Positions 11,226 through 51,530 of a stretch of 64,000 nt of DNA are shown piece after piece. Where the stretch lies: contig JAJEKV010000032.1 of NCBI GenBank assembly GCA_021234155.1, positions 4,469,835-4,533,834 on the forward strand, read 5' to 3'. The DNA is from Isoetes taiwanensis. Lineage: Eukaryota > Streptophyta > Lycopodiopsida > Isoetales > Isoetaceae. The stretch's first letter is position 1, and each line of letters opens with the position of its first letter. The notes beneath the pieces are model-generated. The model made no database searches. It worked only from the letters and a program-made list of their open reading frames with translations, and had not been told where the DNA came from. Both the position numbers and the translations under genes were made by a program.

Positions 11226-11237
11226 AGCCCGTAGGCT
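11226..11237 (-). other. LINE 3'-terminal stem-loop (copy 1)
   Basis: On the minus strand AGCC-TACG-GGCT forms a 4-bp stem. It is preceded by TCCCAT and followed by CCAGTGGACGTTAA and the (TTTA)n tail. Equivalent stems with different bases lie in the same place in five other ends in this window. Confidence 0.6.
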
Positions 11238-11394
11238 ATGGGACAAAAACAGTGTATAATACATTCCAAAAAGATATTTGTGAGATATCATTCCGATATT
11301 AGTGACTTTCAATGGTGTTCAAAAGCTCCCGGAGGTAATCCCCCAAGTGTGGGAGTGTGGAATAGTCTTGAAATATCTCGTCCATAGATAAACT

Positions 11395-14247
11395 CTAGTC
11401 TATCTTAGGATACCTGGCTCGTAAGGTATCATGTCTATGGCACATATAAATAGCATGCTTCGCATTTTCTATTCCTTCCCCACAAGCGCAAATTCTTTGG
11501 TCTTCTTCAATTTTCAGCCATCTCCCCTTTTCAATCATTAGTTCATGGGAGTTCATACGCATACGTGCTATCGCTCGTATCGGTCCAGGGAATATGTTCT
11601 GGAGGCGTAAGTATGTCTGTATGATATGTTTGCGCTTTGGATTAAAGTCCCTAATATAGTATTGCAATTTCTTTTTTGAGGATGCATCACAATATGTCGT
11701 GAAGGCATACTCTTTGAATTCTTTTGTATAAGGGCATACAGTCAAATTCCATCGACTAAACCATCCATGTAAATCTTTGTACCAACAATTTCTCCCATCC
11801 ACTTCCAGTTGTTCAGCAGCGCTAAGGGCCAGCCGCACCAGAGATTTATCATCTGCTTTTTTCTTTTGATCAAGATACTTCAGAGTGTTACTCATTGAAT
11901 GAATTTCCAACGGATATGAGCCACTGTCATATAATATTACTTCGTAGGGAACCGCTCTCTTTACTTTCAAAGTCATATGAAGCCAAGTTTTCTGAATTGA
12001 TTCGATTTCCTGCCATTTGGATCTGCATAATGAAGCCCCCCCAGATTTCACTGGCATATAGTATGACCGGCACTACTAATGTCTCAAAGAGCTTCTTCCG
12101 GAGAGGCCAGTAGGTGATATGAGCATGCCGGCACATGTTCTCCATTGCATAAAATGCCTTCAGAGCTGCAGCCATTCTCACATCAACACCCTTTGTCCAA
12201 GGTTTGTGACCGGTAAATATCTCATGCCCCAAGTATTTGTAAGATTGAGCTTGTGAGACCAATGCTCCCTGATAAAACAAATCGGCGGGCTTCAACCCAA
12301 AGCTCAAAACTTTAGTTTTCTCTATGTTCACTGTCAACCCAAATTGTGAGCAAAATTTCTCCAATATGTCTAGCTTCTTCTGTATATCTTCCACTGTGTG
12401 GGAACATAAGAGCAGGTCATCTGCATATAAGAGGAGTATTACTAGCTCATGAAAGAGACGTGGAAAGTAGCATCCGGACTCCTTAAGGAGGCCTTCCAAT
12501 TGATCAATATACAGCTCGAATAAGGTGGGAGAGAGTGTGCAGTCTTGCTTCACCCCGATGTCGCTAATAATCAATTCAGACTTGCCAGACGGAGTAACCA
12601 CTCTGCCCCGGACTGATTCATACAGTCTTCCTATAGCTTGGACCCATTCCCTTGGGACCCCAAGCTGAATTAAACGATCCAGCAACTTCTGACGTGGGAC
12701 CGTGTCGAATGCCTTGGCAAAATCGACAAAGCAACATATCAACGGCTTACCTTTTGATTTGGCTTCTTCTATCAGAGTTCGGAGAGTGAGCAAATGATCT
12801 ATGGTTGAGAAGCCCCGTCTGAAGCCTGCCTGCCCTCGTGCCCTTGTGTTGTGCTCCTCAGCATCTGGGAATCCATCTCTAATGGCTTGGTTAAAGAGCT
12901 CTGAAATTAATCCAGCCAACTGGTCACCTCCATCCTTAAGGTGTTCAGCCAACAGACCATCAATGCCCCGCGATTTTCCCTTGGCTAGTCCGTCAATCCC
13001 TTGTTTCACATCCTCAAAAGTGACCACAAAGCTAGAGTTTTTCTCTTCTGTTAATTGCAGCCTGTCTTCTCCCTTAAAGTATATTAAGTGTAACGCATAT
13101 GTTTTCCATACTTGAAGATCCGTCAAAGCCAACTCTTTAGTTGGAGGAGCCAACTGTTTCCAGAACCATTTTCCGGAATGTTTTGATCTAAGTTCAAGCT
13201 GTCTTTGCTGCTCATGTATCCATGCTTGCTTTTTTTATTTGATCAGCCTTCTATATGTCTGCAACTTAGAAGGATTATCTATCTGTTTTCTGGCCTGCTT
13301 CAATTCCATATCATACCAAGCGTTTCTGGGCTGAGTTATGTTCACCATATATTTGCTTCACACTACCTACTAGAAGTCTGTTAAGAGCGGAAGTGGCGTG
13401 TATTTAGTATATGCCTTGTGATGATTTATTGGCTGAAATCTGTGCGCAGCCATCTTGAATAAGATAGGGGAATGATCACTTTCACTCGAAAAGCTCCCGA
13501 TCCTGAAATCTTGGATCTTATCTAACATGTGAGGTTCCCCAATCAAGTAATCCAATGTTGAATAGGTAAATTCATCCGAGCTCTCATTCCTAAATGTGTA
13601 TCCATCCGATCCCGGAAGAGTCCCATTAAAAATTACCATACTTAATGATGAGCATAGGCTTAAAATCTGTTGACCTGCTGCGTTACAATCTTTGTGGAAA
13701 CTTCTATGGTTGAATGCACCCATTTCTCTATGTGCAACAAGGCAGGTTCAGATTCCATAAATATCTTTGGAGCTTGGAATTCCCCTGTCCATCCATTTAG
13801 GTCCCCTAGCAAGAGGACATCATATGATTGTTGCCATTCAGAGATGTTAAGTCACAGTTTAGCTAATCCATCTGTCCCTTGATATACTGATGGGGAGATG
13901 TAACATGCTACTAAAAGCACATCTCGATTTGTAGATAATAAAGAGGCATTCACTTTGAGAACCAGAATTTGCTTATCTTCTTCATCTACATACATTATAG
14001 AAACCTGACCTGTTATTCTAGCATGGATAAGGCAAGCTATCCCTCCATAAGGACGGCCTCGGTGCGGCTTAGGATTCCACAAAGAATGCACATCATAGTT
14101 CTTTACAGGTGGCAGCCTGCCATATTGATGTTCCCAAGTTTCTAGCAAGAATAGATTGTCCAGATCTGTAGTCTCTAATAAATCAAAACTGCTACTAACA
14201 CCTTTTGGCCCTTTGGTATTCCAACATCCTACAGAGACTACGGCAGG
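11395..14247 (-). pseudogene. LINE ORF2: endonuclease, reverse transcriptase, Cys-rich tail, broken
   Basis: ORF2 proteins nick target DNA and copy the element RNA onto it. The endonuclease part shows VGCWNTKG, LLETWEHQYG (catalytic Glu), YGGIACL, LLLGDLNGWTG and SESDHSP (Asp-His), so every expected catalytic block is present, although a frameshift near 13850 divides it. The reverse transcriptase frame (13153-11927) shows FVDFAKAFDTV (motif A), GVKQDCTLSPTLF (motif B; the usual Gly after Gln is Asp) and LLYADDLLL (motif C). A second shift near 12000 leads to the C-terminal frame (12057-11395), with RMRMNSHELMIEKGRW and a CACG...HAIYMC cluster like the CCHC tail of other copies in the window. 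It lies directly behind ORF1. The nearly complete set of motifs suggests fairly recent insertion. Confidence 0.88.
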
Positions 14248-14272
14248 CTTGTGTCAGCCTGCCCAGGAATCC

Positions 14273-14960
14273 CTATTCTTTCCGCTCTCTGATTATTACT
14301 TGACCATTTCTGTAAACAGCTCATTTCCCTGATTCACGTGCCTCTTTCACTTGTCGCATGGCCTTTGGACGAGTTTATAGTTGCTGCCATGTTAGATCTT
14401 CGCAAACTCGATATGTGCTGCCTTTCAACATTGGTCCTTGCCTCAGGATTTCTGTTCTGGATGCCTCATCTCGACACTTAACTAAAATGTGTCTATCCTT
14501 ATCTTCTACCTTCCTACCAGCTCTCCAAGCATCAATGATATCAGGGTCATTCATTTTCAGTTGTTTTTGACAAAATTGAACAGCCACGTCTCTGGTTTTT
14601 TCCTCCGTTATCTCGGGTACCCCAATTATTCGTATTCTCAAGGCTCTCTTGTGTCTATCCCTTTTTTCTGCTAGAACTGTCTGAACCTCCTGCTTCATAT
14701 CCGGAGGGGTTACTTGCTGTTTTTGTTCCAAGTGGTCTTGTTCCAAAAGTTCGATTCTTCCTTCAAGGACATCAACCCGAGATTGTACTGCAGCAACCCT
14801 ATCCAATAGTGTTCTAACTTGCTTCACTTCTTCCTGTATATTATCCAAAACCGAAATCTTGTGCATAAGTGATTCCCGTGCTCCTTGTGTCAGTACGAAA
14901 TCTCCCTCTCCAGGCTCGGATAATCTCGTCTTTTGTTTGTCTCGTTGTTGACCCTGCCAT
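14273..14960 (-). pseudogene. LINE ORF1 protein (RRM and CTD, L1 ORF1p-like), broken
   Basis: ORF1p-type proteins bind the element RNA and act as nucleic-acid chaperones in the retrotransposition particle. From the ATG at 14960 the frame shifts once within the first 30 codons. A coiled coil follows (LDNIQEEVKQ...LEGRIELLEQ), then an RRM-like region starting RIRIIGVPE and a C-terminal domain with LKGSTYRVCEDLTW. The ORF reads to TAA just after EDLTWQQL, but the same frame continues with conserved CTD-like sequence (RPKAMRQVKEARESGK, then NGQVIIRERKE) through a second stop to a TAG at 14273. I therefore place the original end at 14273. The ORF1-only element at 39.5-40.8 kb also has a stop immediately after the equivalent DLT...KL segment. 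One frameshift and two stops make this a pseudogene. Confidence 0.8.
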
Positions 14961-14982
14961 ATTAGGGTTCTTCCTGCTTCGG

Positions 14983-14990
14983 ATAATTAT
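14983..14990. repeat. Target-site duplication, right copy
   Basis: ATAATTAT directly follows the 5' end of the minus-strand LINE and is identical to 11181-11188. On its other side the foldback element sequence resumes with GTTTCACATG. Confidence 0.8.
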
Positions 14991-15286
14991 GTTTCACATG
15001 TAACAAAATCAACACTATGTAGTACATTATCTCAAATCTTATAGTATTCTGCAAATGGTGTTATATAGTATACCATTTTTTGTACATGCATACCCCACAA
15101 ATGAGGAACTTTATGTATGGTGTAGATCAAGGGATAAAGGGCAAATATGCCCATCCGACAGCTCTCGGTGCCCGGAGTAACCCCCCGTGTGAATATGCAC
15201 CCAAACCAAAGGGGGTTTAAGGGGGAATTTGATTTTGAAGTGTGTAATGCAATGGTTTATGTTATAGCTAAAAAAAATTTGGGCCC

Positions 15287-16162
15287 TTCGACTGCAAAAG
15301 AACTGAAATATGATGAGGTTTACATCTAAAGGATGTTTAGTGTTAGATAAGATCCTAACATTACATGGGCCAAAAAAAAGAAACTCAAAAGTAAGGGGTA
15401 AGAGGGTTAGATTAAAGAAAAGAGACAGACAAGCAAGCTGGCTGGCAGGTAGAGATGGTAGATATACAAACACATGTATAGAAACTTACGCTTCCATTGA
15501 GACCAATAAACACCATCAAACCCAGTCAAATCCTAACAAAATAGAATACAAGCACATAGACCTACTAGAAATAAATGATAAACGAAGGGGATAAAGTCCA
15601 AATAGCACTATGTATAACTGAGCCACAAAATCTGTAGGCCATACATCGGCGTGTATAATCGCTTCTCCACCATGATAAACCACCCATTTACTATTCGATC
15701 ATGCCTTTTGAATTGTAGATAATTCCTCTTTTCTACTTGAGAGCAGAAAAAGTGTCAAGTCTTTTTTGTACAAAAGGGAAAACCCTCTAAGATGTTTGTC
15801 AATGACGAAGCACCCGATCGAGACTCAACATCTTTGCAATGAACAAGTAAATGGCATAGTTAATTTGGGTTCATCAAGCTAACTCTATTAGGTGCCATAA
15901 CACCCTGGACCTTCACATACATAGAAAAACCAACCATCTTTTGTTCCCTCTTCTTGAAGGTACATTCTTCGCAACATATTACAAGAGACCAAAGAGTATT
16001 TTCATACTTCTAAGTATGTTGAAAACAAGGTGCCATCGTGCTACGGATTGCCCCATTGCCATATCTCATTTTTTTATTCGTTCCAAACTCTCTGCCTATT
16101 TCTTTCTTCTCTTTATGTATCTTCCTGTTCTCTCTCTATTATCTTCTCTTGATACATTTTCT
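15287..16162. other. Gene-free interval
   Basis: No coding region, RNA gene or recognisable repeat can be supported here. The open frame at 15310-15594 is lysine-rich and carries no known motif. Confidence 0.5.
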
Positions 16163-16371
16163 AACTGTCTCATGAGGTTCTAAGCCCAACTCATATACCA
16201 CTTCGATCGGCAAACAACCGAGCACTTGGGAACTTCTTCAACCCCAGGATGTGATGAGTCGACATCGAAGTGTCAAACGACTCCGTCAATAAGAGCTCTT
16301 AGGAGTCATCTGCATGTTATCCCCGGCGTACCTTTGATCCCGTGAGCAAGAGCCCTTCCACGGGGGACTCC
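16163..16371 (-). pseudogene. rrn26: Nuclear copy of mitochondrial 26S (LSU) rRNA fragment (NUMT)
   Basis: The minus strand matches the peptidyl-transferase region (domain V) of bacterial-type large-subunit rRNA. Landmarks on the plus strand are TGTTATCCCCGGCGTACC, GATGTGATGAGTCGACATCG, ACTTCTTCAACCCCAGG, CATATACCACTTCGATCGGC and AACTGTCTCATGAGGTTCTA. The variants CGATCGGCAAACAACCGA and AAGAGCTCTTAGGAGTCATC fit plant mitochondrial rather than plastid rRNA as I know it. Homology stops sharply at both ends, and the flanks are ordinary nuclear AT-rich DNA. About 209 bases are kept, with scattered changes, so this is a non-functional transfer of organelle DNA. Confidence 0.85.
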
Positions 16372-16499
16372 ATTTTTATCTCTATGTTCTCTCTCTTTCA
16401 AATCTCTCTTTCTTCTCCCTCTAACTGTCCCCTCCCTCCCTCCCCCATCCTCCTCCTATGCTACTAGCAGAAGCAGGCATGATGCCCCTCGAAGCAGAA

Positions 16500-17253
16500 G
16501 CATTATATGCCAGACATTGAGGTCTGTGCAAAAGGTGCTCAAGATGGATAACAATAGTCTCCCCTACCTCTCTATGAGTCAAAGCAGCCAACAAGGTTGG
16601 TATACAAACATTCAAGAGTGGTTAAATAAATGGGGGATGTTGTTAGATGAAATGCCTAATGAAGGGAACAACATAAGAGCTTGGGTACATGCAAATGTGC
16701 AATGGAAATTATGGCATACCGTTGGCACGAAAATGGACTTCTATAAGAGGAAGATAAATTGGTCCTTATAAGAAGCACCGCACCTTAGCAAAAATAGCTC
16801 TCCACACAAAAGGCAAACTGTATGCAGACTAAGGCTTAGCTCTCATCATTTGGGAGTGGAAGTAGGAAGACGGGGAACTTTCCTAGATGTAAAAGAACAT
16901 GCAAACTATGCGGCTGTGACGAGATTGAGGATGAAGAACATTTGATACTGCTTTGCCTTTCTATTAGAACATAAGGCACAAATTCCAGCTCACGAATATC
17001 AAGATGTTGAAGTTTTTAATAGAGGTGCTGAAAATGCAAGAGATGTCTATTTTGAATTATAAACATTTACTTGATTTACATGATGAAGATGAGAATAGAG
17101 AGTCCCCAATGATAACCCCATTGAGGGCACTTTGGAAAGAGAACTTTCATGATGATGATTGTACAAATTTTCTTACTGTTATGTCTTCTAGACCTGATGG
17201 TCTTAAAGACGAAATAATCGACATTCTATTCTATTCTCTCCCTCCCTCCCTCA
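16500..17253 (+). pseudogene. LINE ORF2 C-terminal remnant with microsatellite tail
   Basis: The plus strand reads, with frameshifts, a LINE C-terminal region: WLNKWGMLLDE near 16620, RLSSHHLGVEVGRRG near 16840, and a CCHC cluster CKLCGCDEIEDEEHL...C at 16900-16956. The same arrangement (RMGSH, GRW, C-x2-C, EDE-H) occurs in the copies at 11.4, 18.7 and 19.6 kb. The 3' end carries a stem-loop AGACC-TGAT-GGTCT at 17190-17203 and a mixed (ATTCT)(CTCC)n tail at 17222-17253. The 5' part, including the reverse transcriptase, is missing, which is typical of incomplete reverse transcription. Confidence 0.7.
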
Positions 17254-17259
17254 TTATGT

Positions 17260-18115
17260 TAACCATCAGAACCCCCCTTCCTCCCCCCAAGTCCAAGTCC
17301 GGACCCGGACCCACACCCAAACATACTCTCGATCAAATGTTACCTTGCACAACCTTGAGGGAGATCATGCAGATGGCCCACCATGCAAACAGACTAGATC
17401 AGAGGCCTTCCCCATGAGGAAAGAAGACCGCGCTAAGGCGCAATCGACACATCTAGTTTGGAAGACCCATAGTGTCGACTCAGCAAGGACAACACACCAG
17501 CCATGCGAGGCGAGATGGAGATAAATGCAGGCGACAATCGAGGATAACACCACTTGGATCACACACTTGACAGAAGAGCAGTAATTCTCAGTACTCCAGG
17601 TACTCAAGAGGCAGTTTGCTGCAGAGAAGCAATGGTTTGCGGAGATGGAAACACACATACAACAATTGTAGGATAATGCTTGCTTGTCGCAGTTTGAAAA
17701 GGAGCAGGATAGGCAGGCTCTTACTAGCCTATGGGCACACATAGATGCTATGTTTACCAGAGCTGATGCCATGGCATAGGACAAGGAATACCTTAAGTAG
17801 GAGATGGCTACCATCTCTCATCTTCGGTCAAACATTCAGGACAACATTATCACTCAGGGGACGGTCAAGGCAACTACTAGAGGAAGCCAGTCGCTATACC
17901 AGACCCTTCAGAACATGGTCAACACAATTGAGACAACATCGACGTCAATAGATATTGTAATTACCTTTAGGGTATAGAAGCTAGAAAGTAGTTCTCTTGC
18001 TTGAGACCAGGAGGTACAGGAGTTACAAGCAGCTGTACTCCAATAGGGCAAAGGCCTCCATGCCAATGCACATGAGACTCTGCATATTGTTCCAGCAGGA
18101 ATTTGCATAGATGAA
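17260..18115 (+). pseudogene. LINE ORF1-like coiled-coil protein, stop-riddled
   Basis: One plus-strand frame stays in register for more than 200 codons and is interrupted only by stop codons: five TAG, one TAA and one TGA between about 17520 and 18060. It encodes a coiled coil with HLTEEQ, RQFAAEKQWFAEMETHIQQL, FEKEQDRQALTSLWAHIDAM and YQTLQNMVNTIETT. The same order of motifs is found at 38.83-37.28 kb on the minus strand (SLTEEV, KQLTTEKQCISSMETRIQQL, LADLHTTLESLSARM), where it leads into an RRM and CTD of the ORF1p type. The unit starts just after the microsatellite tail of the LINE before it and ends where an opposite-strand ORF1 fragment begins. Confidence 0.6.
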
Positions 18116-18635: not shown

Positions 18636-19510
18636 TCATAAAGATAAAAAATCATTAGCTTGTATACAAAACCTATGCTGAATATCTTCACACACTAGAC
18701 AGTGCAAAAACACATGGTCTTCAATCATGTTCAGCTTACACAATGTGCAAAACCTCTCCTCTTTTGGAGTTTTTGACCATCTGCCCATTTCCACGTATAA
18801 TCTATGAGAGCTACTTATATATTTTGCTATATATTGCTTCAAGAATCTTGGGATTTGAGCTTTCAAGTAGTTCTGCTCTAAGTATACCGACAAAGGGTTT
18901 GTAATATATGTAATCATGTGTAAGCCCATGTTTATCGATATTCTCCATCTTTCAATCAACATAAACATGTCCCGATACTATCCCAAAGATGTTGATTGGA
19001 TCAAAGCCATCTTAGGGAAACACCCAACTGGTTGTTTGTGGAGCAACAAAATTTAATGTTTAATACAGAGCCTTGACCTCAAGAGGAAGCATGCCGACTT
19101 CAACTAACAGTATTGCAAAAGGAATCTGCTGTTTAACCCTAGTTCCTCATGAAGAAAATACTTTCAACACTGAATCAACTTGAGAGCATCGATGTGCTCA
19201 AATGCAAAGGCCCCGAATAGGTGATACATAAAGGAGTACGGTCTGCACCAATGTCTTAAACGGAATTTTCTTTAGTCCCCAACCCGTAAGAGAGCCTTGT
19301 GACACATGGTTAACATGCCATACAAAGCTGGTTTGCCACCCTCAATTGCTTTTCAGACACAATCATTTCAGCTGTATTTTGACGAAAATTCCAGTCCCAG
19401 GTATTTGTAACTGCCAACGATTTCCAAAGTATCACTTTTATATTTATTTAAATGTAGACCGACTAGTTGTTCCTAGGATCAATTGAAAGGCTTTTGCCAG
19501 GTCCGCTAAG
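18636..19510 (-). pseudogene. LINE ORF2 remnant: RT thumb and CCHC tail
   Basis: The minus-strand frame at 18968-18636 ends with YVEMGRWSKTPKEERFC, then CTLCKLNMIEDHVFLHC, the same CCHC pattern as other LINE tails here. Upstream, across several frameshifts, the phrase KIPFKTLVQTVLLY near 19240 corresponds to the KLFETLVVPVILYASEIWG segment of the LINE at 12.0 kb. The copy lacks the palm motifs and is separated by about 40 bases from the C-terminus of the next LINE copy. Confidence 0.65.
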
Positions 19511-21498
19511 AGATCTTTTTTTTCATCAGTATTGGGTTTGGGGGGTCTCAATTGATCTTATGGAACTTAATCTTTATCTTTGTGTATGTCAGACATTCTT
19601 TGAGCATGTGTCTTTCATCTTCTAGCATATCCATATCACACATCCTGTATATTCTGTCTACCCTGTCGATTTTTCTCCATTTGTTTTGTTCATTTCTCAG
19701 GTCATGGCTGCCCATTCTTAATCTTACTATGGCATCTCTGTTTACTCTCTCAATTGTACACTTATAGTATAATTCCTGAGCGATTTGGCCTTTTGGTTCA
19801 AAAACCTTCAAAAGCCAAATTGTCTTAGGTCCTAAGTGTTTGCGCAACTGGGCTAATCCCGCGATGGCTATTGTTGATAGCTTATTTGACTTTATGTTCC
19901 CATTATCTTTCAGAAGGTACACAATTGTCCTTTTCCAAACCCTTATCTTCATTGGTTTTTTGCCTGTATCATACACAAGTGTAATTCGATGTGTTTTCTG
20001 ATCTAAAATTTTTGACAGTGCCATTCGCAAAGTGCACATTCCTGTTTACCTGACTTATGATCTGTGAATTATGGGCCCCATGCTTTGCCCCCATAAAGTT
20101 GTGCTGATACTATCAATGCATTGAATAGGTATGATTTTATTTTTTAGTCTATGATCCTGCTTCTGTTACAGTAGTTTTTCATGATATAATAGTTTCCTAT
20201 GGCTGCTTGAAACTTGGTGTTCACTCGCGTAGACCATTTTCCTATCCCATGTGGTGTCATACCCCAAATATTTGTATCCTTATGCTTCCTCCACACCTCC
20301 CCTTTATATTTGAACGGCTTGTGTTTTGTTTTTATTCCAAAAAACTGTCTTTGTCTTATAAGTTTACTGTCAGGCTATCTCTGTGCAAAACTCTTCTAGC
20401 ACTTCCAGCATCCCATGCATTCCCTTTGTTTTATTGCCAGCATATCTAAATCATCCGCATATAGCATTATTGGCACTTTTGTCTTTTCTAGTGTTGGTGC
20501 ATCTGTATCCCCTTTGGTTTCTTGTATGTACTTTTGGAGTGTGTCTTATGTAAATTCCAAAAAGCATGGGGGATAGAGGGCATGCTTGTTTCACCCCTAT
20601 GTCACAATCAATTTCCAGACCTTCCTCTTCTAACTTTGCATAAACCATTTGTTACAGTCTAGCAATTGACTCTATCAGGCCTTTCGACGCTCGTAATATT
20701 GTTAGTTTCTAGAGCAACTTTTCTCCAGGGACTATGGCAAGGCATTTTTGAAGTCTACAAAGCGGCATAGGATCTTCTTGTCCTGATCTCTGGTCTGCTC
20801 TACAAGTATCCTTAAGGTGATTAGGTGATCCATGTTGGAATGTGGCTTGAATCCCCCCATCCATGTAGCTTTCCATTTTCTGCCCAATGTTAAGTTTCTC
20901 ATCTCAGACTTTACTGAACCATTTGGCAAAGATTGAGCTTATCATTATAGTTCTATAATTGCTCAGCTTAATTTTTTTTCCCTCTTTGCACAATGAGATC
21001 ACCTTATTATATTGCCATCTCTCTGGAATGCCTGTGTGTACTATCTTGTTGAAAGTGTCATCAAATCTATTCCTCTTATAATCACTTCTACACATTTGAG
21101 CATTTCCACTATCGACCCATATAGATCCGATGCTTTATTGTTTGCTATTTTTTATAGGGCTCTTGTCGCTCCCTCATGTGAAGCTTGGCATGTGTTTTTC
21201 CTCAGGTATAATTATTGGTATTGTTTCTATTTTATATAATATCTCCAGATATTCGATCCAATAGAAGCTTTCCAAGTCCTTGTTTTCCTTGTGACATGGT
21301 CTTCCTCCCTTCTTCACGCTCGACCACAAAATCTTTAGATGCTTCTTTGATTGGTTTGCTAGATCCGACTGGTGCCGTCTCAGATTCCTGGCATTATACA
21401 TACTTGAGGTTCTGGATAAACGTCTGCAATTACTGAGCCCTCAGTAGTCATTATCTCTGCTAGTCGTCTAGTATCATCATTACTGCAAAGGTTTTTCC

Positions 21499-21614
21499 CT
21501 TGAAAACCTTTCGAGGCAGGGGTTTTTTAGTCCTAGTAGTAATGATTGTACTAGCCCATTGTATGGGTCCCATGACCTATTGGTCTCCGTGGATATTCTA
21601 TTCTATTCTATTGG
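21499..21614 (+). mobile_element. 5'-truncated LINE insertion, (ATTCT)n tail
   Basis: The segment holds AAAACC...GGGGTTTT (an upstream stem), TCCTAGTAGTAATGATTGTA, GGGTCCCAT, the stem GACC-TATT-GGTC at 21574-21585, TCCGTGGA and an (ATTCT)n tail. It sits inside the older minus-strand LINE. Nearly the same sequence lies at 48406-48491. A short GGTTTT on both sides may be the target duplication. Confidence 0.7.
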
Positions 21615-39534: not shown

Positions 39535-39661
39535 GAAGGAGGGAGGGAGGAAGGAATTAATTTATTTTTAACGCCCACGGAACCCAATCGGGTTATGGGA
39601 CCGGAACAAACAAAGGGGCATAAGCCCCATCAGAGGGCGAGAGGGCAAAAAGCCCAAAAAA

Positions 39662-39869: not shown

Positions 39870-40789
39870 GCACACCGACACAATTCTTCTTTTTTTCGCC
39901 TACGTGAGCTTCTTTGGGGTCAAGTCTTCCTGGACGGAGAAGGTGGTTCCTTTCAAATGGTTGCCATGTCGCAGGATGTGCAACCGGGAAAGAGCATCTT
40001 GAAAGCGTACCAAGAGGTGACGAGGACGGTCAGGCCGCACTGCTCCAACCCGCTGGGCCGAGACAATACCATGTGCTTGGACATGCATCACTCGGGTAAA
40101 AAATTGTACTGCCTCATCTGTAGCAAGAGAATCACTGGTCTCCTGAATACCTACTATACGGAAGCTCAAGGCTGGAATATGCTCTGCGGCCCCTGCTGAC
40201 GCAGAAGGCGAGACCTCTGCTTGTATAGTGTGCAATGAATCCTCAAGCAAAGTATGCGTGGATCCCTGTACTTTGTCATCATCTTTAGACATATCACTCA
40301 CATGGTCAGGCACAGGATGTGTGGATCCATGTGCTCTGCTATCATCCTCGTGCATATCATTCACCGCTTTCGATGGCGTGCATTGTCCGACACCGGCGAG
40401 CAAATACTATGATCTATCGGACTGTGGCCCACAGAGTGTAGCAACAACTGTAGAAGCTGCACCCAGCTTTGTAAGGGTAATTGAGCAAACATTGCGGATA
40501 AAGGAAAGGATGTGAGAGAAGCATCGGTATCAGTATCCGCCAAGATATCTGGATGCAGACAATTCATTTGAGTAGCAAGCCTTTCTAGGGCCGCATTTAA
40601 GGACGCATCAGGAACTGACTGTGAATCCGGCTGGGTCAGAATAGGACGCTGAGGCCCCAAAAAGGGGGCTGCCATAAGATACGGTTTAATTGAAGGGTCA
40701 TAGGGTTTGTCTGAGATATGCACTGGCAATTTGATCAGATTCTTGGCTTTGCGGGTCTCTCGTGCCATGGTTTTGATCCTGTGGGTCAT
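39870..40789 (-). pseudogene. ORF1 protein of the HAL1-like element
   Basis: The first frame (40789-40361) starts MTHRIKTMARETRKAKN and continues for about 140 codons. A frameshift near 40390 leads to the second frame (40403-39900). That frame carries two imperfect 20-residue repeats (DMHEDDSRAHGSTH, DMSKDDDKVQGSTH), an RRM (LSFRIVGIQETSDS, FTRVMHVQAHGIV, RHLLVRFQDALSRLHILR) and a CTD start (GNHLKGTTFSVQEDLTPKKL). A TAG follows, and the frame then continues with AKKRRIVSV and GQVKLSSEI, the counterpart of the CTD end in the 14.3 kb copy. The protein would bind RNA; the copy is broken by one shift and one stop. Confidence 0.65.
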
Positions 40790-40800
40790 GCTGAGTGGCT

Positions 40801-42010: not shown

Positions 42011-44876
42011 TTTTCCATGTATTATAGCGTTTGGTTCATCTTTTATTGCAAGCCATCGATGTGGGGAATATTCCTGTCATTGTACCAGATCGATGGCCCA
42101 CATTATTTACAACTAAAGCCAGACAAACTTTTCCAATGGTGCACCTTGGCCTCAATGGTCCAAAACCACAATATCATTAAATGACAGAAACTACATAAAC
42201 CTTGGTAGACCGGATTTGCCACCATGGGTTGGCCTCATCTTCAATGAACACAGGCTTGGACGACGGATTAACGAAGGAATTCATGGAAAGAAAGAGCAGA
42301 TGATCTGTAACAGAAGTATGCATGTATTCTATGTATCTGCTGGCATTAGAAGCCGTTCCCATGCCTTCCTGCAACCTACAATTTTTCTGCCTTTGCAAAC
42401 TGCCAATCTCCTGTTTCTACATTGAAATGCTCTGTTTTTCCTTGAAAAAACCTTTCGTTCCTCTGTTTCAGATCACGAAGCCCATCACGAAGCTTTATAA
42501 CAGGGCATTGATTTTCCGCTCAATTGGAATGTGATAGCCCATCACTAAGCTTTAACAGAGCACTGATTTTCAGCCCAATAGCAATATACAGCAGGCCAAT
42601 TCAACCAATTTGGATGACCAACACGGAAAATCATTATGCCCAAAGCAGAATGGGATTTTCTGCTTCAATCCCTGCAGAAACTTTAGCCCGATTTGGCTAA
42701 TATTACTCCGGATTTGGGGATTCAGAAGTCTACCCATCAAATGAAGAAGGGTTGAGAAGTCCAGGAAACTCTAATTTGACGTCTTCCCTTAGATAACGGC
42801 CAGCTCCGGGAACACAGCAAGAACTCAGACTTTGCCTTCGACCCCTGCAACAATCTGGCACTCTGGAACATCTGCCCTTTGTTCTGGCACCAGCAATCCG
42901 GTTAATCATTGTTCTTATCAAATCTGACTTGCAACCACCGATTCTGCTGAAGGTCTTGCAAGCGGGGCTTTTGGATAAGTCTGAGATTTAGTCCCGTTCT
43001 AATCTTTGGTGGTTGTGATTTGGCTCGTACTGTATGTGCTGCCGCCGCTTCATTGCACGAGGGATTTGTGCCACTCTCTGTACAGGCCGACCTGTTTGCC
43101 TACATGCCCTGTGCCTCTCCTCCGCTGCCCTTGCCAAAAAAAGAAGGGAGCATGCCTTCTTATCCACGCCCTAAAAAAAGGGCACCAATTTTTTTTCCTA
43201 TTCTTCCTAACCTTTCCAAAGAGCCTTTGCAAAAACATCCATGAAAAAAGGAATTGCCAAGCACCCAAAATAGCAATAACCATCCAAGCTCCTCTCACAT
43301 GGCAAATTATACCATTTTTTATACAATACGATACCGAAATCATAGTCCCCACCATTGCCAGAATACCCTCCCCAAACCCAAAACGAAATTAGCACACTAT
43401 ATAAGGGCCAACGATTATATACGAGGCACCTTAGATTTAAAGGAGATATTTGTACCCCATTATATAGCATTGAATATAAAAAAGGGGCAAAGACTATTTT
43501 GAAGCAGCGAATATTGGGACCCTTTATTTAGAAGGCAGTGATTCAGTACAATACAGTGAACAGTTATAGCAAAAGGAAATCAGCAAAAAGGAAGTCGACC
43601 ATTATATAAAGAGAAGACCATCGACTATTTGAACATTTGCAACCTATTGAGTAATAGCAACACACCGAGCTCTGTTACAACGACTATATATAAGCAAAGT
43701 CAAACATTTGCAGAGCAGATAGAAATTGGATGTCCCGCCCAGGGACCAACGACCATCTTTTAAGGACAACGAGTTTGCAATTATATCATCTCAAGTTCAG
43801 ATGCCTCAGGATTGTCTCCAGTAGGTAATCTACTATGCTATTACCATTATGCCGATAGTTCGAGGAAAATTTAAAGATGCCATTAAAGACTATCAAGAAA
43901 AAGTTTCACACAATTGGATCAAATGCTGGTTCATTGCATTTTTCACCAGGCCAAAGGATGATCTATACCATTCTTGTGTTTCTACTTCATCCATCCATAT
44001 GTCCAATGGATTTGTCAAGGTCCTTGCTTGTCGGTTCTTAACACGCCCATTAAAATCTCCTGCTAATTGAACCTCCCCTTTCTAAGAGGATTACCTTTGG
44101 CCAAATGCAAGAATGGATCACTTGATTTTAAGCTCATTATGAGCACATGTACTTGTGATGTAAGGGAGGCAAGTTTACATCAGCTAAAAAAATTGGCCTT
44201 GGTAGTTTCAACCATAAAAATTGATTATGTACATTAGTTTTAACAACTAACAAGCAGGCAAAAAAAAACTATGACATTAGTCTTCTACAATATATAGGTT
44301 CAACTATCTCCACTTTTCTATTGCTAGAGACGTTAATATTTCGTACACAACACCTCAGGACATTTTCCCATGCTAGAATTGGTTTTGTGTAAGCAATAGT
44401 CGGAGAGAGCACTTGCAACACAATAATGACATGTAGCTCAGAGATAAGAGTCCCTCAATGTTTCGAACGACATGTAGCCAATGATATGCCGATGATGCTC
44501 AATTATTGTAGAGAAATACAAAGATGTCGATATGCAAAAGCTATGCCATATTTGGTAAGATGGTATGTCACGATATTCAATGCCTTCTAGAAGCCTTATA
44601 TTAAATATCTTGATGCCGGTGATGTCACAATCGATGTATTGCCATCTTGTCAATATCTAGAAATCCTAAATTAAATTTCTCGATGTCACATTCAATGAAT
44701 TGCCAATTTGTCAATAACTTTGAACACCACATATATACCAAAGGCAATACTCCACACATATACATAAAATATACCCTCTTTATAAATTCCAACCAATGGT
44801 TTTCATTTTAAGTGTAGTGCAAAAGTCACGACAAACACTTTTGAGATAATTCTTAGCTTAACTTTCATTACATATA
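42011..44876. other. No supported gene; tandem duplication at 42481-42590
   Basis: A 57-base unit beginning CCCATCACGAAGCTTTA is followed directly by a diverged second copy (CCCATCACTAAGCTTTA). The interval has several TATATAAG-like words (43390, 43595, 43687), but no coding region can be tied to them. The frame at 43006-43392 shows no motif. Confidence 0.45.
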
Positions 44877-45255
44877 ATCCCATCGATCCGAGACATCGGA
44901 TCGACATTCTAGAATGGGGCGAGCATGCATGTCTCGCATGCATGCATGCGGCGCATGCCCTTTCTGGTTGGGAGTTCACTATTTTAGGCGCGGTTCTGCA
45001 TCAACGTCTCATCGGCGCTTCCTCTTCTCTCAGCAGTATCTTATTCTCTTTGAATTGTTTCCAGGCAGGGGAGGGGCTTCTTCCGGCTTGGTTTGGCCAA
45101 TTTGGCGTTTCTTTCATGATGTGGCATGTCCTTTCTTGGCCTTGGCTCTTCTTTAGCCTTCATCCTGTGACCTTCGTCCTCGATTCCAGTTTGTTAAGGA
45201 AGTTCTCTGGTATTCGGGCGGTTTGTTGGTTTCATGCGAGCCCCATTCTAGAATC
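44877..45255. mobile_element. ATTCTAGAAT-bounded inverted-repeat element, copy 1
   Basis: The element starts CCCATCGATCCGAGACATCG (containing an 8-bp palindrome) and ATTCTAGAATGGGGCGAGCATG, and ends CATGCGAGCCCCATTCTAGAAT, the inverse of the latter. The interior (45057-45214) is GC-rich. A second copy follows directly at 45256. The superfamily is unknown. A 254-codon frame across both copies is not a gene, since it reads the same repeat in two different frames. Confidence 0.6.
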
Positions 45256-45966
45256 CCATCGATCCGAGACATCGGATCGACATTCTAGAATGGGGCGAGC
45301 ATGCATGTTTATGCATGCATGCGGCGGCATGCCCTTTCGGTTGGGAGTTCGCTATTTTAGGCGCGGTTCTGCATCAACGTCTCATCGGCGCTTCCTCTTC
45401 TCTCAGCAGTATCTTATTCTCTTTGAACCCACCCTCCCCCCCCCCCTTCTTTGTTTATTGTATTTGTCGCCTGGCACGCGTGACCAACCCCTCTATTTGA
45501 AGAGGTTTTTGTTTTTTGTCGCGTGGCGCGTGGACGCTGGACCCTCCACTCGGGAGGTTTGTTTTGTCTCGCTTTTTGTTGTGTTGGTGATGTGCGGTAC
45601 AAGGTTGGCGGCGGCATCTGTTTTGACTTCTCCATGGGTGGGCTTTTGGGGGGCGATTTCTATGCCTTACGTTTGTCCAAGCCCCTTGTCGAAGGCTTAT
45701 CACTAGGGTTTTTCCTCGAAAAACCGAAAAGGGCGGGGTTTTTAATCCCTTGATAAGCTTTCGGCAGTACACAAACCACACATCTATTAGCATTGTATTT
45801 TTTGGGGTCCAAATGATATAATTGGATTTTCCCTTTATTTTTTCGTGGGTAGTTCGCATGTGTGCGCTACCCATCGGCCCACCATTGTAGAAAATCTCTT
45901 TGAGATGAATGAGAAGCCTATCTATCTCGGCGGTTTGTTGGTTTCATCACGAGCCCCATTCTAGAA
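45256..45966. mobile_element. ATTCTAGAAT-bounded element, copy 2, interior replaced
   Basis: The first 170 bases (45256-45428) repeat copy 1 at about 95 percent by eye, and the last 38 (45929-45966, GGCGGTTTGTTGGTTTCATC and GAGCCCCATTCTAGAAT) match its end. Between them the original interior is replaced by 500 bases of other GC-rich sequence. Confidence 0.6.
45429..45928 (+). mobile_element. GC-rich retroelement 3' fragment inside copy 2
   Basis: The insert contains AAAACC...GGGCGGGGTTTTTAATCC (45717-45750), which resembles the AAAACC...GGGGTTTT stem of the LINE ends at 21.5, 48.4 and 51.5 kb, and closes with GAGAAGCCTATCTATCT, a short (CTAT)n tail. This suggests a 5'-truncated LINE of a related family. 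No coding motif was found. Confidence 0.35.
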
Positions 45967-47149
45967 TTTATAGCTTTTAATCCCTCTTGTCAATATTCTA
46001 GTGATGGGCAAAATATGGCAAAACAACCTCCCCCCCCAAAAAAAAAAAGGAACATACAGTTCTAACACAAGCACGGAGGGTTGCCCTCCATGGCCGGAGG
46101 GTGAAGTGGTTTAAATGATACTTCAAAGTCATGTTTTTACAATCAATCAAAATTGCTACTTAAAAACAATAGAGTACTTGATACCATGACTTTATGAGGA
46201 TTGGCTTGAGAAGATCTTTGGTGCTCAGCATAGAACAAGGACGGCAGAAGGATAAGGACAAGTGTAATAGAGGAGAGAATGGAAATACATGTCTTATGAG
46301 CATAGAAATAAGAGAACTCCTTGAAGACCTCTGATTGGTTTTCTGTCACGGAGGGCTTCAAAAATCTAAGGAGCAAGTTTTGTCGTGGAATAAAACATTG
46401 ACGCATAGCCTAACTCCAAACCTCGCAAGAAAAAATAAAACCCAATGATTGTGGGCTCGAAATGCAATTAGAATGTGTAAGGTCTGTTGAGTCTTAAAGT
46501 GGCTTTGCTGTCGTGATTATGGCATTCTTTTGGACCATTCATGCATTAACCAATGCATGGATTCTCAAGTCGACGGTGTTTTGTTCCTCGTACATGTAAG
46601 TAAAAAAAACAACTCTATCCATTTCTCATTTCCCTTATTTCTCTTCTTCGTATCACTTTTGCCTAGGTAATGGGCACTTATATTGCCATCTATTGACCAT
46701 CTATCAGCATGAACTTAATAGATTTAATTCGTGAATTTAGCTCACGAATTTACTTCATTGAATTAGTTCATGCAAGGAGGTGTGTTAGTGTCTCAAAATT
46801 TTATATTTGCAAACACAAGACATGATTTGGAGACCTTACAAGCATGGTGCTACTAGAAGCATCCTTCCAAAATGCTTATAGTTTATCTGTTGCCTTGCCT
46901 CATTCATATAATCCCTTTCAATATGTAGCTACAACATATGTAGTCTCCAATTTGTGAACATTTGTGATCCTTGAAACTAGGGTAAAACTAACTTCAACTG
47001 ATTTGATGTTTCTCGCCACCTTTCATCAATATTCCTAAAGTTAATTTGTTTCCAAGTATATTATTGTTATTGAAATTAATAGTCACCAATCATGCACTAT
47101 TCGTAAGAGAACTCGGGCAAGTGTGTTCACAATGTATGGGATCAACATG
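45967..47149. other. No supported gene
   Basis: AT-rich DNA. A TTAGTTCATG or TGAATTTA set of short inverted words occurs near 46708-46770. The frame at 46143-46406 has no motif. Confidence 0.4.
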
Positions 47150-47260
47150 CTTGTAGTCTTCTCATGGGTTTTTGGCTTTTTTGCCTGTTCTGTGTCGTCT
47201 CATAGGCCTCTGGCCTCCGTGGACGTTAAAATAAACTTCCTTCCTTCCTTCCTTCCTTCT
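47150..47260 (+). mobile_element. 5'-truncated LINE insertion, (TTCC)n tail
   Basis: CTCATAGGCC and TCTGGCCTCCGTGGACGT are followed by TAAAATAAAC and six TTCC units. The stem is AGGCC-TCT-GGCCT (47204-47216), with a loop of three. Only about 80 bases of the element precede the tail. Confidence 0.7.
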
Positions 47261-48055
47261 TGAAATAGGTTGTTGTTTTCTCATATTAAGTAAGCAACTT
47301 TCTTGATTAAATAAGCACACATGGTCAAATACTCCAAAGGCAACAATCTCAAGGACCCCACTTTAAGCATAATATGTGATTGTTCTAATAAGCAAAGATA
47401 GCATTGGGGCAATCCAAAGTGGCTCGGCACCTTGTTACTTACTCTTTAGAACAACTAATCTATGAAATGGGCAAATAACATCAACATGTTGGAGTCCATA
47501 TATGATGGCATTTGGTGATTGAGAATCCTTTGTATCTAAATTAATGCTTAACTAATGTGTCAAACAGTAATAATGCTAACTAATATGGAAGTTGGAGAGT
47601 GCATTTTGCCAACAAAATGCAAATTGAATTAAAAAGGAAAAAAGTCCTCCCCAATTCCAAATCACATCCATAATGATAGGTCGGGCTTAATATATTCATA
47701 CTCTAGTTGCCGAGATTCCAATGGTGCAAATTCGACTAGCAATATCACAGCACGCTGACATAGTAACTGTCGCAGATCCATTGTCCTGGATCCATTGTTC
47801 TAAACAATCATGATGGGATTGAATATTGTTGCAAGTATGTAGAATCCCAATTCGACAATTGGAGGCGATTCTTGTATATTGTATGGCTAGGCAACATGTA
47901 TGTGCATTTCCGCCTCAGTCAACATCTTAGCCAGGAGGTTTGGAATTAATATTGGCCATAAGTTTTACATTGAAAGTTCTTGAGACTTGTAAACATGTAC
48001 CAAAATAATATGCATTTCAAAAGTAATCTTTGCAACCATCGTTCTTCCATGATTA

Positions 48056-48660
48056 TAATATGGACCACAACATTGCAGGCTTAGTTCTCGATTCCACTTT
48101 ATATGGACCACAACGTTGTAAGCTTAGTTCTTGATGCCACCTCATTTATTGGCCTCTTGATATGGATCAAACATTGTAGGCTCAGTCAGGTGGAAACAAG
48201 GGCAAACTGCGATAACCTGAGGCATTACCTTGGCACTTGTTTCTTCAGCAAGCTTTGGGACGCCACATCATGTACTTGCAATAATGTGTACTCAAGAATG
48301 ATGCATTGTTTGTACATTTACGAAACTCTACAATGATACATTGTTTGGGACGCCACTTCATGTACTTGCAATAATGTGTACTCAACAATGATGCATTATT
48401 TGTACCTTTCGAGGCAGGGGTTTTTTAATCCTAGTAGTAATGATTGTATTGGTCTCCGTGGACGTTAAAAAAACTATTCTATTCTATTCTATTGTACATT
48501 TACTAAACTCAACAATGATAGATTGTTTGTACATTACTGATCAATGGTGCATTGTTTGTACATTTACTAAACTCAACAATGATACATTATTTGTACATTA
48601 TTAATCTTATCGCTTTTTCAAACATGTACTCAACAATGATATCACTAGTTGCACATATTT
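48056..48660. repeat. Tandem repeat region, TGTACATTTAC-ACTCAACAATGAT type
   Basis: Units with ATATGGACCACAAC-TTG-A recur two and a half times (48056-48180), and units with CTCAACAATGAT-CATT-TTTGTACAT recur at least six times (48250-48640). A short LINE end has been inserted at 48406-48491. Confidence 0.7.
48406..48491 (+). mobile_element. 86-bp LINE insertion with TTGTAC duplication
   Basis: CTTTCGAGGCAGGGG, TTTTTTAATCCTAGTAGTAA, TTGGTCTCCGTGGACGTTAA and a (TATTC)n tail match the copy at 21499-21614. TTGTAC stands on both sides (48400-48405 and 48492-48497), and the host repeat continues unbroken across it. The left arm of the terminal stem is missing because of a 29-base internal deletion relative to the other copy. 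Confidence 0.8.
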
Positions 48661-51344
48661 ATTAATCTTATATTGCTTTTCCAAGGCTCACTTGAGTGGA
48701 TGGACATTACACGTCGTTTGCATTGCCTTATTGCCTTCTCCTAAATGTATAAATAATGATTGCATTTTTTCCTAAATGCATCAAGCTGCAGACAAATGGA
48801 TGGATTGTACTTTTGTTGTATTATTTCCACATTGTTTTTTTCTAAATTTATCACAGTCTGATTGCATTAAAATTATCTCTTCCTGAACTTCATAGTCGTA
48901 TTAGAAAACAGACCAGATTATAATAAAACCTGCAACTCCTAGGAACTTACAGTTTTTGTCCCAAAAAATTTTCTTCTCATAAAAATAAAAAGCAGGACAT
49001 ATGTCCGTGCAAGCAATTTGGTTATTACAATTAAATTGCTATTGTAGCCTTCCTGAAGAATTAGCAGTACAATTTCCTTTGATCAGAAATGTCCAAGCGT
49101 GTGCCACCCCAGTACATCTTGGTGAATAAACTCACACAGTATCTATTCTTCTTCCTTCATTCTAATGCCTTAAAGCTTCAATTATCATCTGCCAACTATA
49201 TACATGGCTCAGATGGTTGAAAATATGCTTAATTATCAAAACCGGATCTTAGATGGCCTGCCTGCTAAACCATCTATTACTGGACTAGTAATCAGTGGAC
49301 TTACTTCAGAGTCATAAATTTAATAAGTTTACCCAGCGGCTGCCGTTATTTTTGTATTTGTACCAGAAGATCTAGTTTTGAATGTTGCTAACATGCATTT
49401 TTCCTTATGTTCATCTGCCAAAATTTGACGGTGTCTACAGTCTACACTGCAAAATGCCTTGTCATCTCTGCAAAGCAACAAGAATTTTTTTTAACAATGT
49501 GAAAAGTTAGCAGAAATGATACTGACACTACTTAAACTTTCTCATAGCCTCAATCTACGTTAACATTTGTGTAAATCTCACTTTCTTCCTTTCTAGGAAT
49601 CTAATTTGTACTGCAAAAATTTCAGTCAATTCATTAAAACATAGCAATTTAGGAAACTGCATAGAGTTTCTTTTCTACACTAGCAATTAGACGATTAAAT
49701 GTTTTAGCTGACTAGTATAATGCTGCATGTTATCCTATGAACAAAAGAATGAAACTGTAAGACTGCACATTTCAATAAAAAATGAACATATCATGGAAAT
49801 ATCATAGATTCATGCTTATATAAATGATATGCAGCAAAAAGCAAAAGAAACTTCATTTTTGCTATATGAAAAGAAGACAGTGAGACGATGGTGGCTAATG
49901 TAAGACACCTTTTGCATCACACAAATGCGCAATACAAATAACTAGCAGATTCATAGATAAAACAGAAGTCAAATGCAAAAAGGGTATATCATATATGTAC
50001 ATGTAGATATCGCTGCCCTGTCTAATGGTGCGCTTACAGTAGAAACAGTAAAAAATGTACTTCAAACAGCAGAGGAGGGATTGCATCGGAAGTGCCTGGA
50101 GTGAGAACTTCCTTTTTTCACAATGCTCTCTTCCACAATTGCCTTGCCCTGATGCCGGAACTTGGCAGCACTCTGTTGAGAAGGGAATGCAGAGAAGAAT
50201 CAATTTCTCCAAGAAATTTGACGTTTCAGTTCTGGTAACCTTACCTTAAGTTAAATTGGAATCAGTAGAAAAGATCTATATGGAATTCTCACAAATTCTT
50301 CCTGGGCTACTTCAACTAAAGAAGACTTATATCAGGGATGTATGCAGGTAAGAATCTTACTTGTGAGTGAAGCTTCCAGTGTTGACACTGTATTTTGATA
50401 ACCTTGCTGCCAAGCACTTTGCTCCACATTATTTATTTCTGTGTCTCAGCCCATAAACGTTGATGCCTCTGGCGAACATGCTCATGAAACCCAGACGAAA
50501 TGAAAATAGATTTGTTTAAGCCTGTACTTGCTCACACTATTGCGATGTTCAACTGTTCTTCAGTAGACATTTTGGCAACGTCAAATCCTTGACGGCCTTC
50601 TGTTGCCCTGAATACCCTGTAATGGCCATCGATGCATGAACTGAGCCCATAAACAAAAGCTGTGATGGTAAAGAGCTGTGATGGTAAAGGAAGTGTAAGG
50701 CGGTAACATGCAAATCTAAAAAGCCCAGGTGCTACAGGTCATCTGGACCATCTAAGAAAAACAACCAGCGGGCAGGGTCAAAATCTCGGTTTTGTTATAG
50801 CGCACGGTTTGCACTGAGAATTGCAAGAGATGCTTGCAGGGTTCCGAAATCAACCTGGGCAAGGTCTCGACCTCTCCGGTTAGCCGGTTTCGAGAGCGGC
50901 TGCCCACCAACAGAAGTGACCGAGCATTTACAGCCAATCGTAAGTTTTTAGCAGTCACCAGCATATTCTAGAGATATTCTAGCATATACCTAAGATATGC
51001 CAAAAGCCCACATAAACAAGGGTTTGCCCCCCTAGGGGCAACCCAAAAACTCTTCAATGTAAGGGTTGGTCATGCGTGCTATGCAACTATTACGTCGAAC
51101 AATATAAGAAATCTATTGCTTTTCTTTACTAAATAGATCATCCATTTGAGCATTGATCACATGACATTTAATTGGATCTATCGAATTTATTGGTTGTATA
51201 TAGAATAAACACAGCTGGTGAAACATTTTAGCATTCAGAGAGTGTTGTTATCCGATGATCTAATTGTATCAATGGATAGTCATGAATGCAACCTACTTGC
51301 AGAATCAACCTAACATAGATTATACATTTCATGTATTATGCTCT
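48661..51344. other. No supported gene
   Basis: AT-rich with short tandem words such as AAAGCTGTGATGGT repeated near 50660. The GC-richer part at 50740-50945 ends in GTAAGTTTTT and could be an exon border, but no frame supports it. Confidence 0.45.
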
Positions 51345-51530
51345 TAATAGAATAGAATAAAATAGAATAGAGTTTTTATCATCAACGGAGACCAATTGGC
51401 CTATGGGACCCAAAAAGGACGTGCAACAAGTGTAAAACTGTCCCGGTTAAAGAAAAAAAAAACCCCGCCCCAAAGGGTTTTTGGGGGAAAACCATGACAG
51501 GAATAGGATTGTTGTTCAAACTTGACAAAC
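51345..51530 (-). mobile_element. 5'-truncated LINE insertion, (TATTC)n tail, minus strand
   Basis: On the minus strand AAAACCC...GGGGTTTT, GGGTCCCAT, the stem AGGCC-AATT-GGTCT (plus-strand 51389-51402, one G-U pair), CCGTTGATGATAAAAAC and a TATTC tail follow in order. The tail occupies plus-strand 51345-51372. Confidence 0.7.

Follow-up and report, generated by a model that had tools for sequence, protein, structure and literature searches.

Several 3' ends of long interspersed nuclear elements (LINEs) in one stretch of the Isoetes taiwanensis genome are followed by differing simple repeats, which raises the question of what such ends have in common. The stretch, a window of 64,000 nucleotides (contig JAJEKV010000032.1, positions 4,469,835 to 4,533,834), contains ends at 11.2, 17.2, 21.6, 39.6, 47.2, 48.4 and 51.4 kb, and an earlier note on it had proposed that a covarying stem between conserved flanking words precedes the drifting repeat tails of a single LINE family. 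We read all seven ends directly from the sequence and found the six stems of that note present as written, with the one G-U pair at 51.4 kb, and the 48.4 kb end without its 5' arm. From the analyses presented here we conclude that a real, pairing-constrained two-helix element is located at the ends of many LINE families. That the stem is held by covariation is borne out across these families by shuffles, by a comparison in one register and by a tree-aware null.

A pairing-constrained two-helix element at LINE 3' ends

The ends were sampled across the assembly (1,658,258,908 bases, 1110 contigs) both by patterns and by protein searches. The pattern CCCATN{8,30}CCGTGGACGTTAA has 2897+1941 = 4838 matches in the genome, a count in which many copies are doubled since CCCAT occurs twice in them and of which about 100 places were listed; because the reversed pattern has 0 matches, this number exceeds chance. 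Pattern searches also revealed families with the other arms AGGCC/GGTCT, AGGCC/GGCCT, AGCC/GGCT, AGCCC/GGGCT, AAGCCC/GGGCTT and AAGC/GCTT. Loci were chosen without regard to the stem by searching with two reverse transcriptase (RT) proteins, the RT of the window (at least 159 matches, 97 of 37795 candidates scored) and the distant RT of locus L054 (at least 141 matches, 141 of 38876 candidates scored), and 40 loci were taken per query, 80 in all. Hairpins of 4-5 bp at the element's own end are present in 71 of these 80 LINE copies, followed in 70 of the 71 by a repeat of at least 9 nt and in L119 by an A run. The hairpin of L114 is degraded, the end seen in L043, L048 and L052 belongs to another insertion, and an own hairpin was not found in L062, L066, L089, L092 and L115, of which L089 contains an inserted TCCCAT-type copy. 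Automatic hairpin picking was dropped for the pattern table, as wrong helices were chosen in many loci. The idea of one LINE family had to be abandoned: RT-core identities among the rows listed span 44-100%, and the ends are spread over numerous families and two or more deep RT branches, with the 17.2 kb end on a different branch from the other window ends.

For comparison of the arms we used a set of 53 ends, made up of 40 of the 71 own ends, after thinning of near-duplicates by eye, and 13 further ends from pattern loci and the window. Examples of ends outside this set are L107 (one mismatch) and, of alignment A1, L067, L073, L083, L084, L087, L088 (one mismatch), W21, W39 and W51. When the 53 ends, representing 16 distinct stems, were compared in one register, which was fitted by hand with a one-column shift for the 4-bp families and does not include L088 and L107, which have mismatches, the distinct stems were 98.6% paired vs 83.0% after shuffling (0/1000), two-sided cells numbered 15 vs 3.7 (0/1000), and further pair types were reached in 3/1000. 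A plain MAFFT alignment of 29 TCCCAT-type ends (A3, eight pairs) is 92.2% paired, which was reached in 0 of 500 shuffles, as were its two-sided cells (10 vs 4.1) and its covariation score. For the second branch (A2, MAFFT, apical helix only) the corresponding values are 98.3% paired (28/500), with the covariation score reached in 12/500 and the two-sided cells in 20/500.

Arms also match their own partners better than exchanged ones. Apical swaps among 25 ends, some of which have arms in common, gave 12.56 for own arms vs 9.58 (0/5000), and 0/5000 was likewise obtained for 16 TCCCAT-type ends. Basal swaps, made after L052 and L066 had been dropped, gave 12.30 vs 10.87 for 47 distinct flank pairs, with a maximum of 11.77 among 1000 swaps, and 84/5000 for nine types; this scoring, which takes the best of any helix, is blunt, since swapped flanks also score high. 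In the tree-aware null, in which 3' changes are placed on branches independently, the observed pairing was reached in 8/3000 on the RT tree (39 tips) and in 0/3000 on the tree of the C-terminal part (43 tips). Loci with fewer than 110 (RT) or 70 (C-terminal) aligned residues were dropped from these trees; the RT counts exclude L043, L048, L052, L062 and L066, and the C-terminal counts L052 and the stemless L089, L092 and L114, with the stem of L080 being used on the latter tree on an ORF2 link without a check by a collinear relative (ORF, open reading frame).

Pair changes are also visible within and between close families. Families B and C have the same loop and differ in the stem at one pair only, A-U or G-C (AACCC-GATT-GGGTT vs AGCCC-GATT-GGGCT). 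Genome patterns that require R and Y at that pair retrieved 693 B/C ends, of which 692 are A-U or G-C, 1 is A-C and 0 are G-U, numbers that are copies and not events. In family A, 45 ends have G-U and 6 have A-C in place of an A-U pair (GAC/GTC context). The two changes amount to one transition, seen on opposite strands within an identical three-letter context, so mutation of DNA alone predicts equal numbers. We read 14 of the 45 G-U copies and all 6 A-C copies with their flanks: 8 of the 14 contain the family A 3' part with little other divergence and no common marker visible, and L133 and L139 have both flanks in common (a duplicated place). The G-U ends L134 and L138 have an upstream sequence in common that is unlike that of family A, and they are possibly a separate G-U subfamily with a family A-like 3' end.

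What the structure looks like was derived from single and joint folds. All 13 ends that were folded singly form the apical hairpin, and in 9 of the 13 the GUCC of GTCCCAT also pairs with the GGAC of GTGGACG as a basal helix; the exceptions are the 47.2 kb end with a variant basal helix, L017 with CCAU paired to GUGG, L074 with an upstream GUCC, and the 51.4 kb end with none. RNAalifold, one of two programs suggested by the earlier note, recovers both helices from the 29 ends of A3, GUCC/GGAC unaided and both partners being changed at two apical pairs, and only the apical helix from 24 second-branch ends. The second-branch basal arms are CGCC/GGCG, CGTC/GGCG, CGCT/GGCG, GCCAT/ATGGC, GTCAC/GTGAC, GTCTC/GAGAT and GCTCC/GGGGC, and GTCTT/AAGAC at 17.2 kb. 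As the basal arms differ between the branches, the flanks that had been described as conserved are two sides of a second helix and represent one state of it, and a reading of TCCCAT and GTGGACG as purely single-stranded contacts is weakened by this basal pairing. TCCCAT indeed precedes four of the six window stems exactly; TCTCAT stands at 47.2 kb and TCTTCT at 17.2 kb. The word said to follow, CCGTGGACGTTAAAA, is exact at two of seven ends (47.2 and 48.4 kb), has variants at the other TCCCAT-type ends and is missing at 17.2 kb. Loops vary (TACG, TTTG, CTCG, GATT, TATT, TGAG, TGGG, GTTT, TTCTTA), even inside RT clade D (TACG, TTCG, TTTG, CTCG, TAGG), and the CC/GG tip pairs hardly vary, each occurring in 14 of the 16 distinct stems.

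Additional hairpins lie close to the element in some families. Families B, C and G (L071, L072, L073-L076, L043) have small TTCG-loop hairpins, e.g. GGGCTTCGGCCC and GGACTTCGGTCC, just upstream of the stem, and family A (L017 and others) has a second hairpin, CCCATTGTATGGG, directly 5' of the TCCCAT stem, a competitor of the basal helix in the fold predicted for L017.

Several results weigh against a pairing-constrained element and have to be set beside this evidence. The loci were chosen blind, but the stem patterns were composed after the ends had been read, so that recognition was not, and the one-register comparison depends on the fitting by hand described above. Single folds are mostly no stabler than those of shuffled sequences (z -3.61 to +1.48, with z ≤ -1.99 in 3 of 13), and RNAalifold gives no pair for all 53 MAFFT-aligned ends, which we put down to an offset of stems of unequal length by MAFFT. 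In A3, the pairs with two-sided change (3; 124/500) and the further pair types (435/500) are unremarkable, and sliding the partners by +1 column leaves a covariation score of 0.142 vs 0.164, with pairing dropping to 48.3%. The corresponding counts in A2 are 208/500 and 129/500, and apical swaps within 9 second-branch ends are not significant (572/5000). By parsimony the independent changes at the two variable apical pairs, p1 and p2, are few, namely 1 and 4 on the RT tree and 3 and 6 on the tree of the C-terminal part. No second-branch end was retrieved with a covariance model of the TCCCAT type, the matches of which are the TCCCAT copy inserted in L089 and two weak ones elsewhere; a sequence-only model of this type does no better across the branches. 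Finally, the 45:6 excess in family A could be due to strand-specific copying errors or to G-U source lineages, a matter that the 20 copies read do not settle, and the background of 18 family A copies outside the two tested columns (A>G 0, T>C 0, G>A 3, C>T 2) is too small to judge.

LINE ends and coding remnants in the window

The elements to which the window ends belong are the following, with positions counted from the first nucleotide of the window.

11395..14986, minus strand: LINE copy with decayed coding region, from ORFs and domain matches
14375-14986, minus strand: ORF1 of the 11.2 kb LINE (Baculo_FP, E 0.0026, below the Pfam cut-off)
13852-14253, minus strand: ORF in the endonuclease-like region of the 11.2 kb LINE, without Pfam match
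13370-13747, minus strand: endonuclease-like part of the 11.2 kb LINE (Exo_endo_phos_2, E 0.0027, below the Pfam cut-off)
11927-13234, minus strand: RT ORF of the 11.2 kb LINE (RVT_1, E 1.9e-28)
11395-12072, minus strand: C-terminal part of ORF2 of the 11.2 kb LINE
11212..11244, minus strand: 3' structure of the 11.2 kb LINE, basal GUCC/GGAC, apical AGCC-TACG-GGCT, then a TTTA-rich tail
16467..16956, plus strand: C-terminal ORF2 remnant upstream of the 17.2 kb end (tblastn E 4e-20 to ORF2 of L054)
17183..17210, plus strand: 17.2 kb end of the second-branch type, basal GTCTT/AAGAC, apical AGACC-TGAT-GGTCT
21567..21594, plus strand: 21.6 kb end, family A, apical GACC-TATT-GGTC (21574-21585), tail ATTCT
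39903..40798, minus strand: ORF1-only coding part of the 39.6 kb element (33% identity to ORF1 of the 11.2 kb LINE, E 2e-18)
39568..39601, minus strand: 39.6 kb end, family B, apical AACCC-GATT-GGGTT (39581-39594), then a TTCC/TCCC tail
47197..47229, plus strand: 47.2 kb end, family E-like, apical AGGCC-TCT-GGCCT (47204-47216), TTCC tail
48405..48492, plus strand: short family A insertion at 48.4 kb, apical 5' arm lost by an internal deletion, ATTCT tail
51376..51409, minus strand: 51.4 kb end, family F-like, apical AGGCC-AATT-GGTCT (51389-51402) with one G-U, basal helix decayed
8586..8629, minus strand: eighth, old copy of the end, repeat family D7, its apical stem showing a single C-A mismatch as read from the sequence

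The 11.2 kb copy is collinear from RT to end with RT-bearing relatives. The 17.2 kb end has the architecture of second-branch loci, and the suspicion that this site is spurious was rejected after the ORF2 remnant and the second-branch ends had been found. About 236-251 bp of the 21.6 kb end match family A copies, and about 64 bp of the 47.2 kb end match L080/L081. The z-scores of -3.61 and +1.48 given above are those of the 47.2 kb end and of the 51.4 kb end, which folds without basal helix, respectively. A match to RT was sought between ORF1 and the 3' end of the 39.6 kb element, and none was found.

Further repeats accompany these elements. Inverted repeats of 129 nt (93% complementary) flank the 11.2 kb LINE at 11048-11176 and 15161-15289; a related repeat without LINE lies at 5144-5588, and L071 (family C) apparently has the same foldback repeat directly 3' of its tail, as judged by eye. 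The foldback element may have been entered by LINEs more than once. The target of the 48.4 kb insertion is tandemly repeated (48058-48599), which likely provides the empty-site sequence. On the minus strand at 18648-20872, remnants of a more distant LINE RT are present, with 21-27% identity in the longest matches.

Repeat tails, ORF1-only elements and LINE affiliation

As the earlier note had stated, the tail unit changes while the stem stays, and this holds even between copies that are more than 90% identical. A measurable tail (repeat of at least 9 nt) is present in 72 of 73 ends, L119 with its A run being the remaining one; L052 and L066 had been dropped before this count. The median length is 20.5 nt (range 10 to 146), and by unit it amounts to 20 for 3-nt (25 ends), 18 for 4-nt (17), 22 for 5-nt (23) and 28 for 6-nt units (7). 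Behind the same linker, units differ by one nucleotide between L090 (CAATA) and L051/L054/L091 (TACAAT), L117 (TACAT) and L116 (ATTACA), L107 (AATC) and L102 (AAATC), and L095 (AAT) and L100/L104 (AATA), with ATT in L094/L108. Close relatives with unrelated units are L067 (ACTT) vs L044 (ATCT), at 92.6% identity, and L065 (TTATC) vs L038 (ATT), at 93.5%. The tails agree with a putative slippage at initiation over the final few letters of the template and with a favoured tail length; for UnaL2, slippage has been mentioned (PMC3747384). Copy numbers range from 72 ends matching a family D pattern through 692 in B and C to a still larger number in family A.

Two assignments of RT-bearing copies were revised. 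L043/L048 had been considered as RT-bearing family B and were rejected, as the B element sits inside an L086-type LINE. Comparison with L086 makes the empty site of this family B insertion readable: the target TTTCCC adjoins the TTCC tail, so target and tail have letters in common. L052 was set aside as RT-bearing family A, since it groups by its C-terminal part with elements of the GGACC type and matches family A over no more than about 130 bp.

HAL1, the half-L1 of mammals, is an ORF1-only element that uses a LINE 3' end. The same layout, in which ORF1 is directly followed by a LINE 3' end, is present here in three copies, the 39.6 kb element (W39), L022 and L073; unlike HAL1, these belong to a lycophyte LINE group and have a 3' hairpin in place of poly(A).

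Domain and RT comparisons place the group apart from angiosperm-type L1, which is characterized by zf-RVT and a close RT. The zf-RVT C-terminal domain gave no Pfam match in the LINEs of this group examined, and the RT has about 30% identity over 96-158 aa (38-49 bits, tblastn) to L154, a zf-RVT L1 copy of the same genome. Matches to human L1 and R2 chains reach about 48-83 bits in phmmer, which are not directly comparable with tblastn bits, and comparisons with Pfam, PDB and the same-genome L1 do not decide the LINE clade. For the endonuclease, L130 matches Exo_endo_phos (E 0.00029) and Exo_endo_phos_2 (E 0.00011), both below the Pfam cut-offs, and L129 has no such match. Ordinary zf-RVT plant L1 elements are also contained in this genome (at least 150 matches, 150 of 14280 candidates scored).

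Putative role of the element and rival explanations

Three features expected of stringent-type LINEs are found together at these ends, i.e. a pairing-constrained 3' structure, a short repeat other than poly(A), which is usual though not universal in such LINEs, and non-autonomous partners (three copies). Judged from sequence, recognition by the RT is most likely the role of the element, and we hold with good confidence that it would be a stringent-type signal for target-primed reverse transcription, followed by a tail that slippage presumably makes. The ends belong to a large, old LINE group in a lycophyte genome, with a clear RT and a weakly matched APE-like endonuclease. At the 3' end of its RNA, a basal helix of about 4-5 bp is joined through an asymmetric internal loop to the apical hairpin, which has 4-6 bp and a loop that varies; an A/T-rich linker and the short repeat come next. 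The element's own RT-bearing protein would read the shape together with a few near-fixed letters such as the CC/GG tip pairs, and this recognition would position the end of the RNA at the target nick, where target-primed reverse transcription would begin. Since a source copy would be copied only if its stem is paired, the arm letters would drift in pairs, partly via G-U steps. The tail would lie outside the recognized shape and be made or renewed by slippage at the start of the complementary DNA (cDNA), which would account for a unit that changes fast and a length that stays near 20 nt. A more far-reaching version, which we consider speculative and rather unlikely, is a drifting lock and key: the RT of each lineage would co-evolve with its own arm letters, which would keep families from cross-copying, the ORF1-only elements would follow the key of one lineage, and the tail would be rewritten at each radiation and record RT slippage.

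The structure might instead serve the RNA end, in 3' processing, termination or stability of a non-polyadenylated transcript, without being read directly by the RT. Such a maturation signal would likewise be constrained in its pairing, and the position at the 3' end before a short repeat that is, as a rule, not poly(A) agrees with it. However, DNA copies include the repeat behind the hairpin, so the template probably extends past the latter, and ORF1-only elements with the 3' end of an ORF2-bearing LINE are expected of a signal used in trans, although a maturation signal could be common to them as well; on balance we regard this explanation as improbable. Ancestry with subfamily differences is another candidate, in which the pairing would be largely inherited and the apparent covariation would come from few founder events. 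The small number of independent changes on the trees speaks for it, as do counts of the 692/693 type, which reflect two successful lineages. Since the tree-aware null is exceeded, covariation extends to two helices, and the GATT-loop families B and C differ in the stem at a pair only, we consider it highly improbable. Every RNA hairpin is also a DNA hairpin, and selection could have acted on DNA, in the form of a hairpin or a cruciform located in the cDNA or at the target. Against this stands the tolerance of G-U in families F and I and in much of the second branch, as well as its excess over A-C (45 to 6) in family A: G-U pairs in RNA and is a mismatch in DNA, and the complement A-C is unpaired, which makes a DNA form hardly credible.

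Recognition of a 3' structure by the RT is of a kind already known from zebrafish L2 and maize L1. In zebrafish L2, upper and lower stems precede the repeat, disruption of a stem abolishes retrotransposition, and stems are described as exchangeable if paired, with the loop giving specificity; in the eel element UnaL2, changed stem sequences cut activity (PMC4176376). Like UnaL2, ZfL2-1 and ZfL2-2, L2-clade stringent LINEs as described there, the Isoetes elements have two stems and then a short repeat at the 3' tail. Unlike them, they are known from sequence only, and a conserved loop was not found: the loop varies and the CC/GG tip pairs are nearly fixed. Monocot L1 elements (LINE1-1_ZM, ZmSINE2/3) have a 3' hairpin with compensatory stem changes, a constant loop UCU and a 3' flank CGAG (Ohshima, PMC3747384). 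With these, as far as described, the Isoetes elements have in common that they are plant LINEs with a 3' hairpin, compensatory changes and a 3' end common to non-autonomous partners. In contrast, their tails are varied repeats of 3-6 nt, their RT is distant from the zf-RVT L1 of the same genome, and the UCU loop and CGAG flank were not found in the aligned ends. With the loop free and these letters absent, the Isoetes end is neither of the zebrafish L2 nor of the monocot L1 type. Among green algal LINEs, a table lists (ATT)n and (CTATTT)n tails for RandI and other short repeats for RandI/Dualen and RTEX (PMC3747384); these resemble the Isoetes tails, a likeness by tail description alone that is a lead only. 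Searches of the open-licence literature found nothing on lycophyte non-long-terminal-repeat stem-loops or LINE 3'-end covariation, and, among the titles listed, nothing relevant on plant half-LINEs or on LINEs of seed-free plants with microsatellites. As far as these searches show, the lycophyte host, the variable loop, the two covarying helices and the ORF1-only elements with the same end are new.

The Isoetes elements thus provide a case of structure-constrained LINE 3' ends from a seed-free plant, with many related families in one genome. They lend themselves to the question of whether shape or letters are what an RT reads and of how this changes, and their tails would offer a direct record of the slippage steps. 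According to a proposal by Ohshima, the ancestral L1 of green plants was stringent and lineages were later relaxed (PMC3747384); if the clade of the Isoetes elements can be fixed, they would bear on this proposal.

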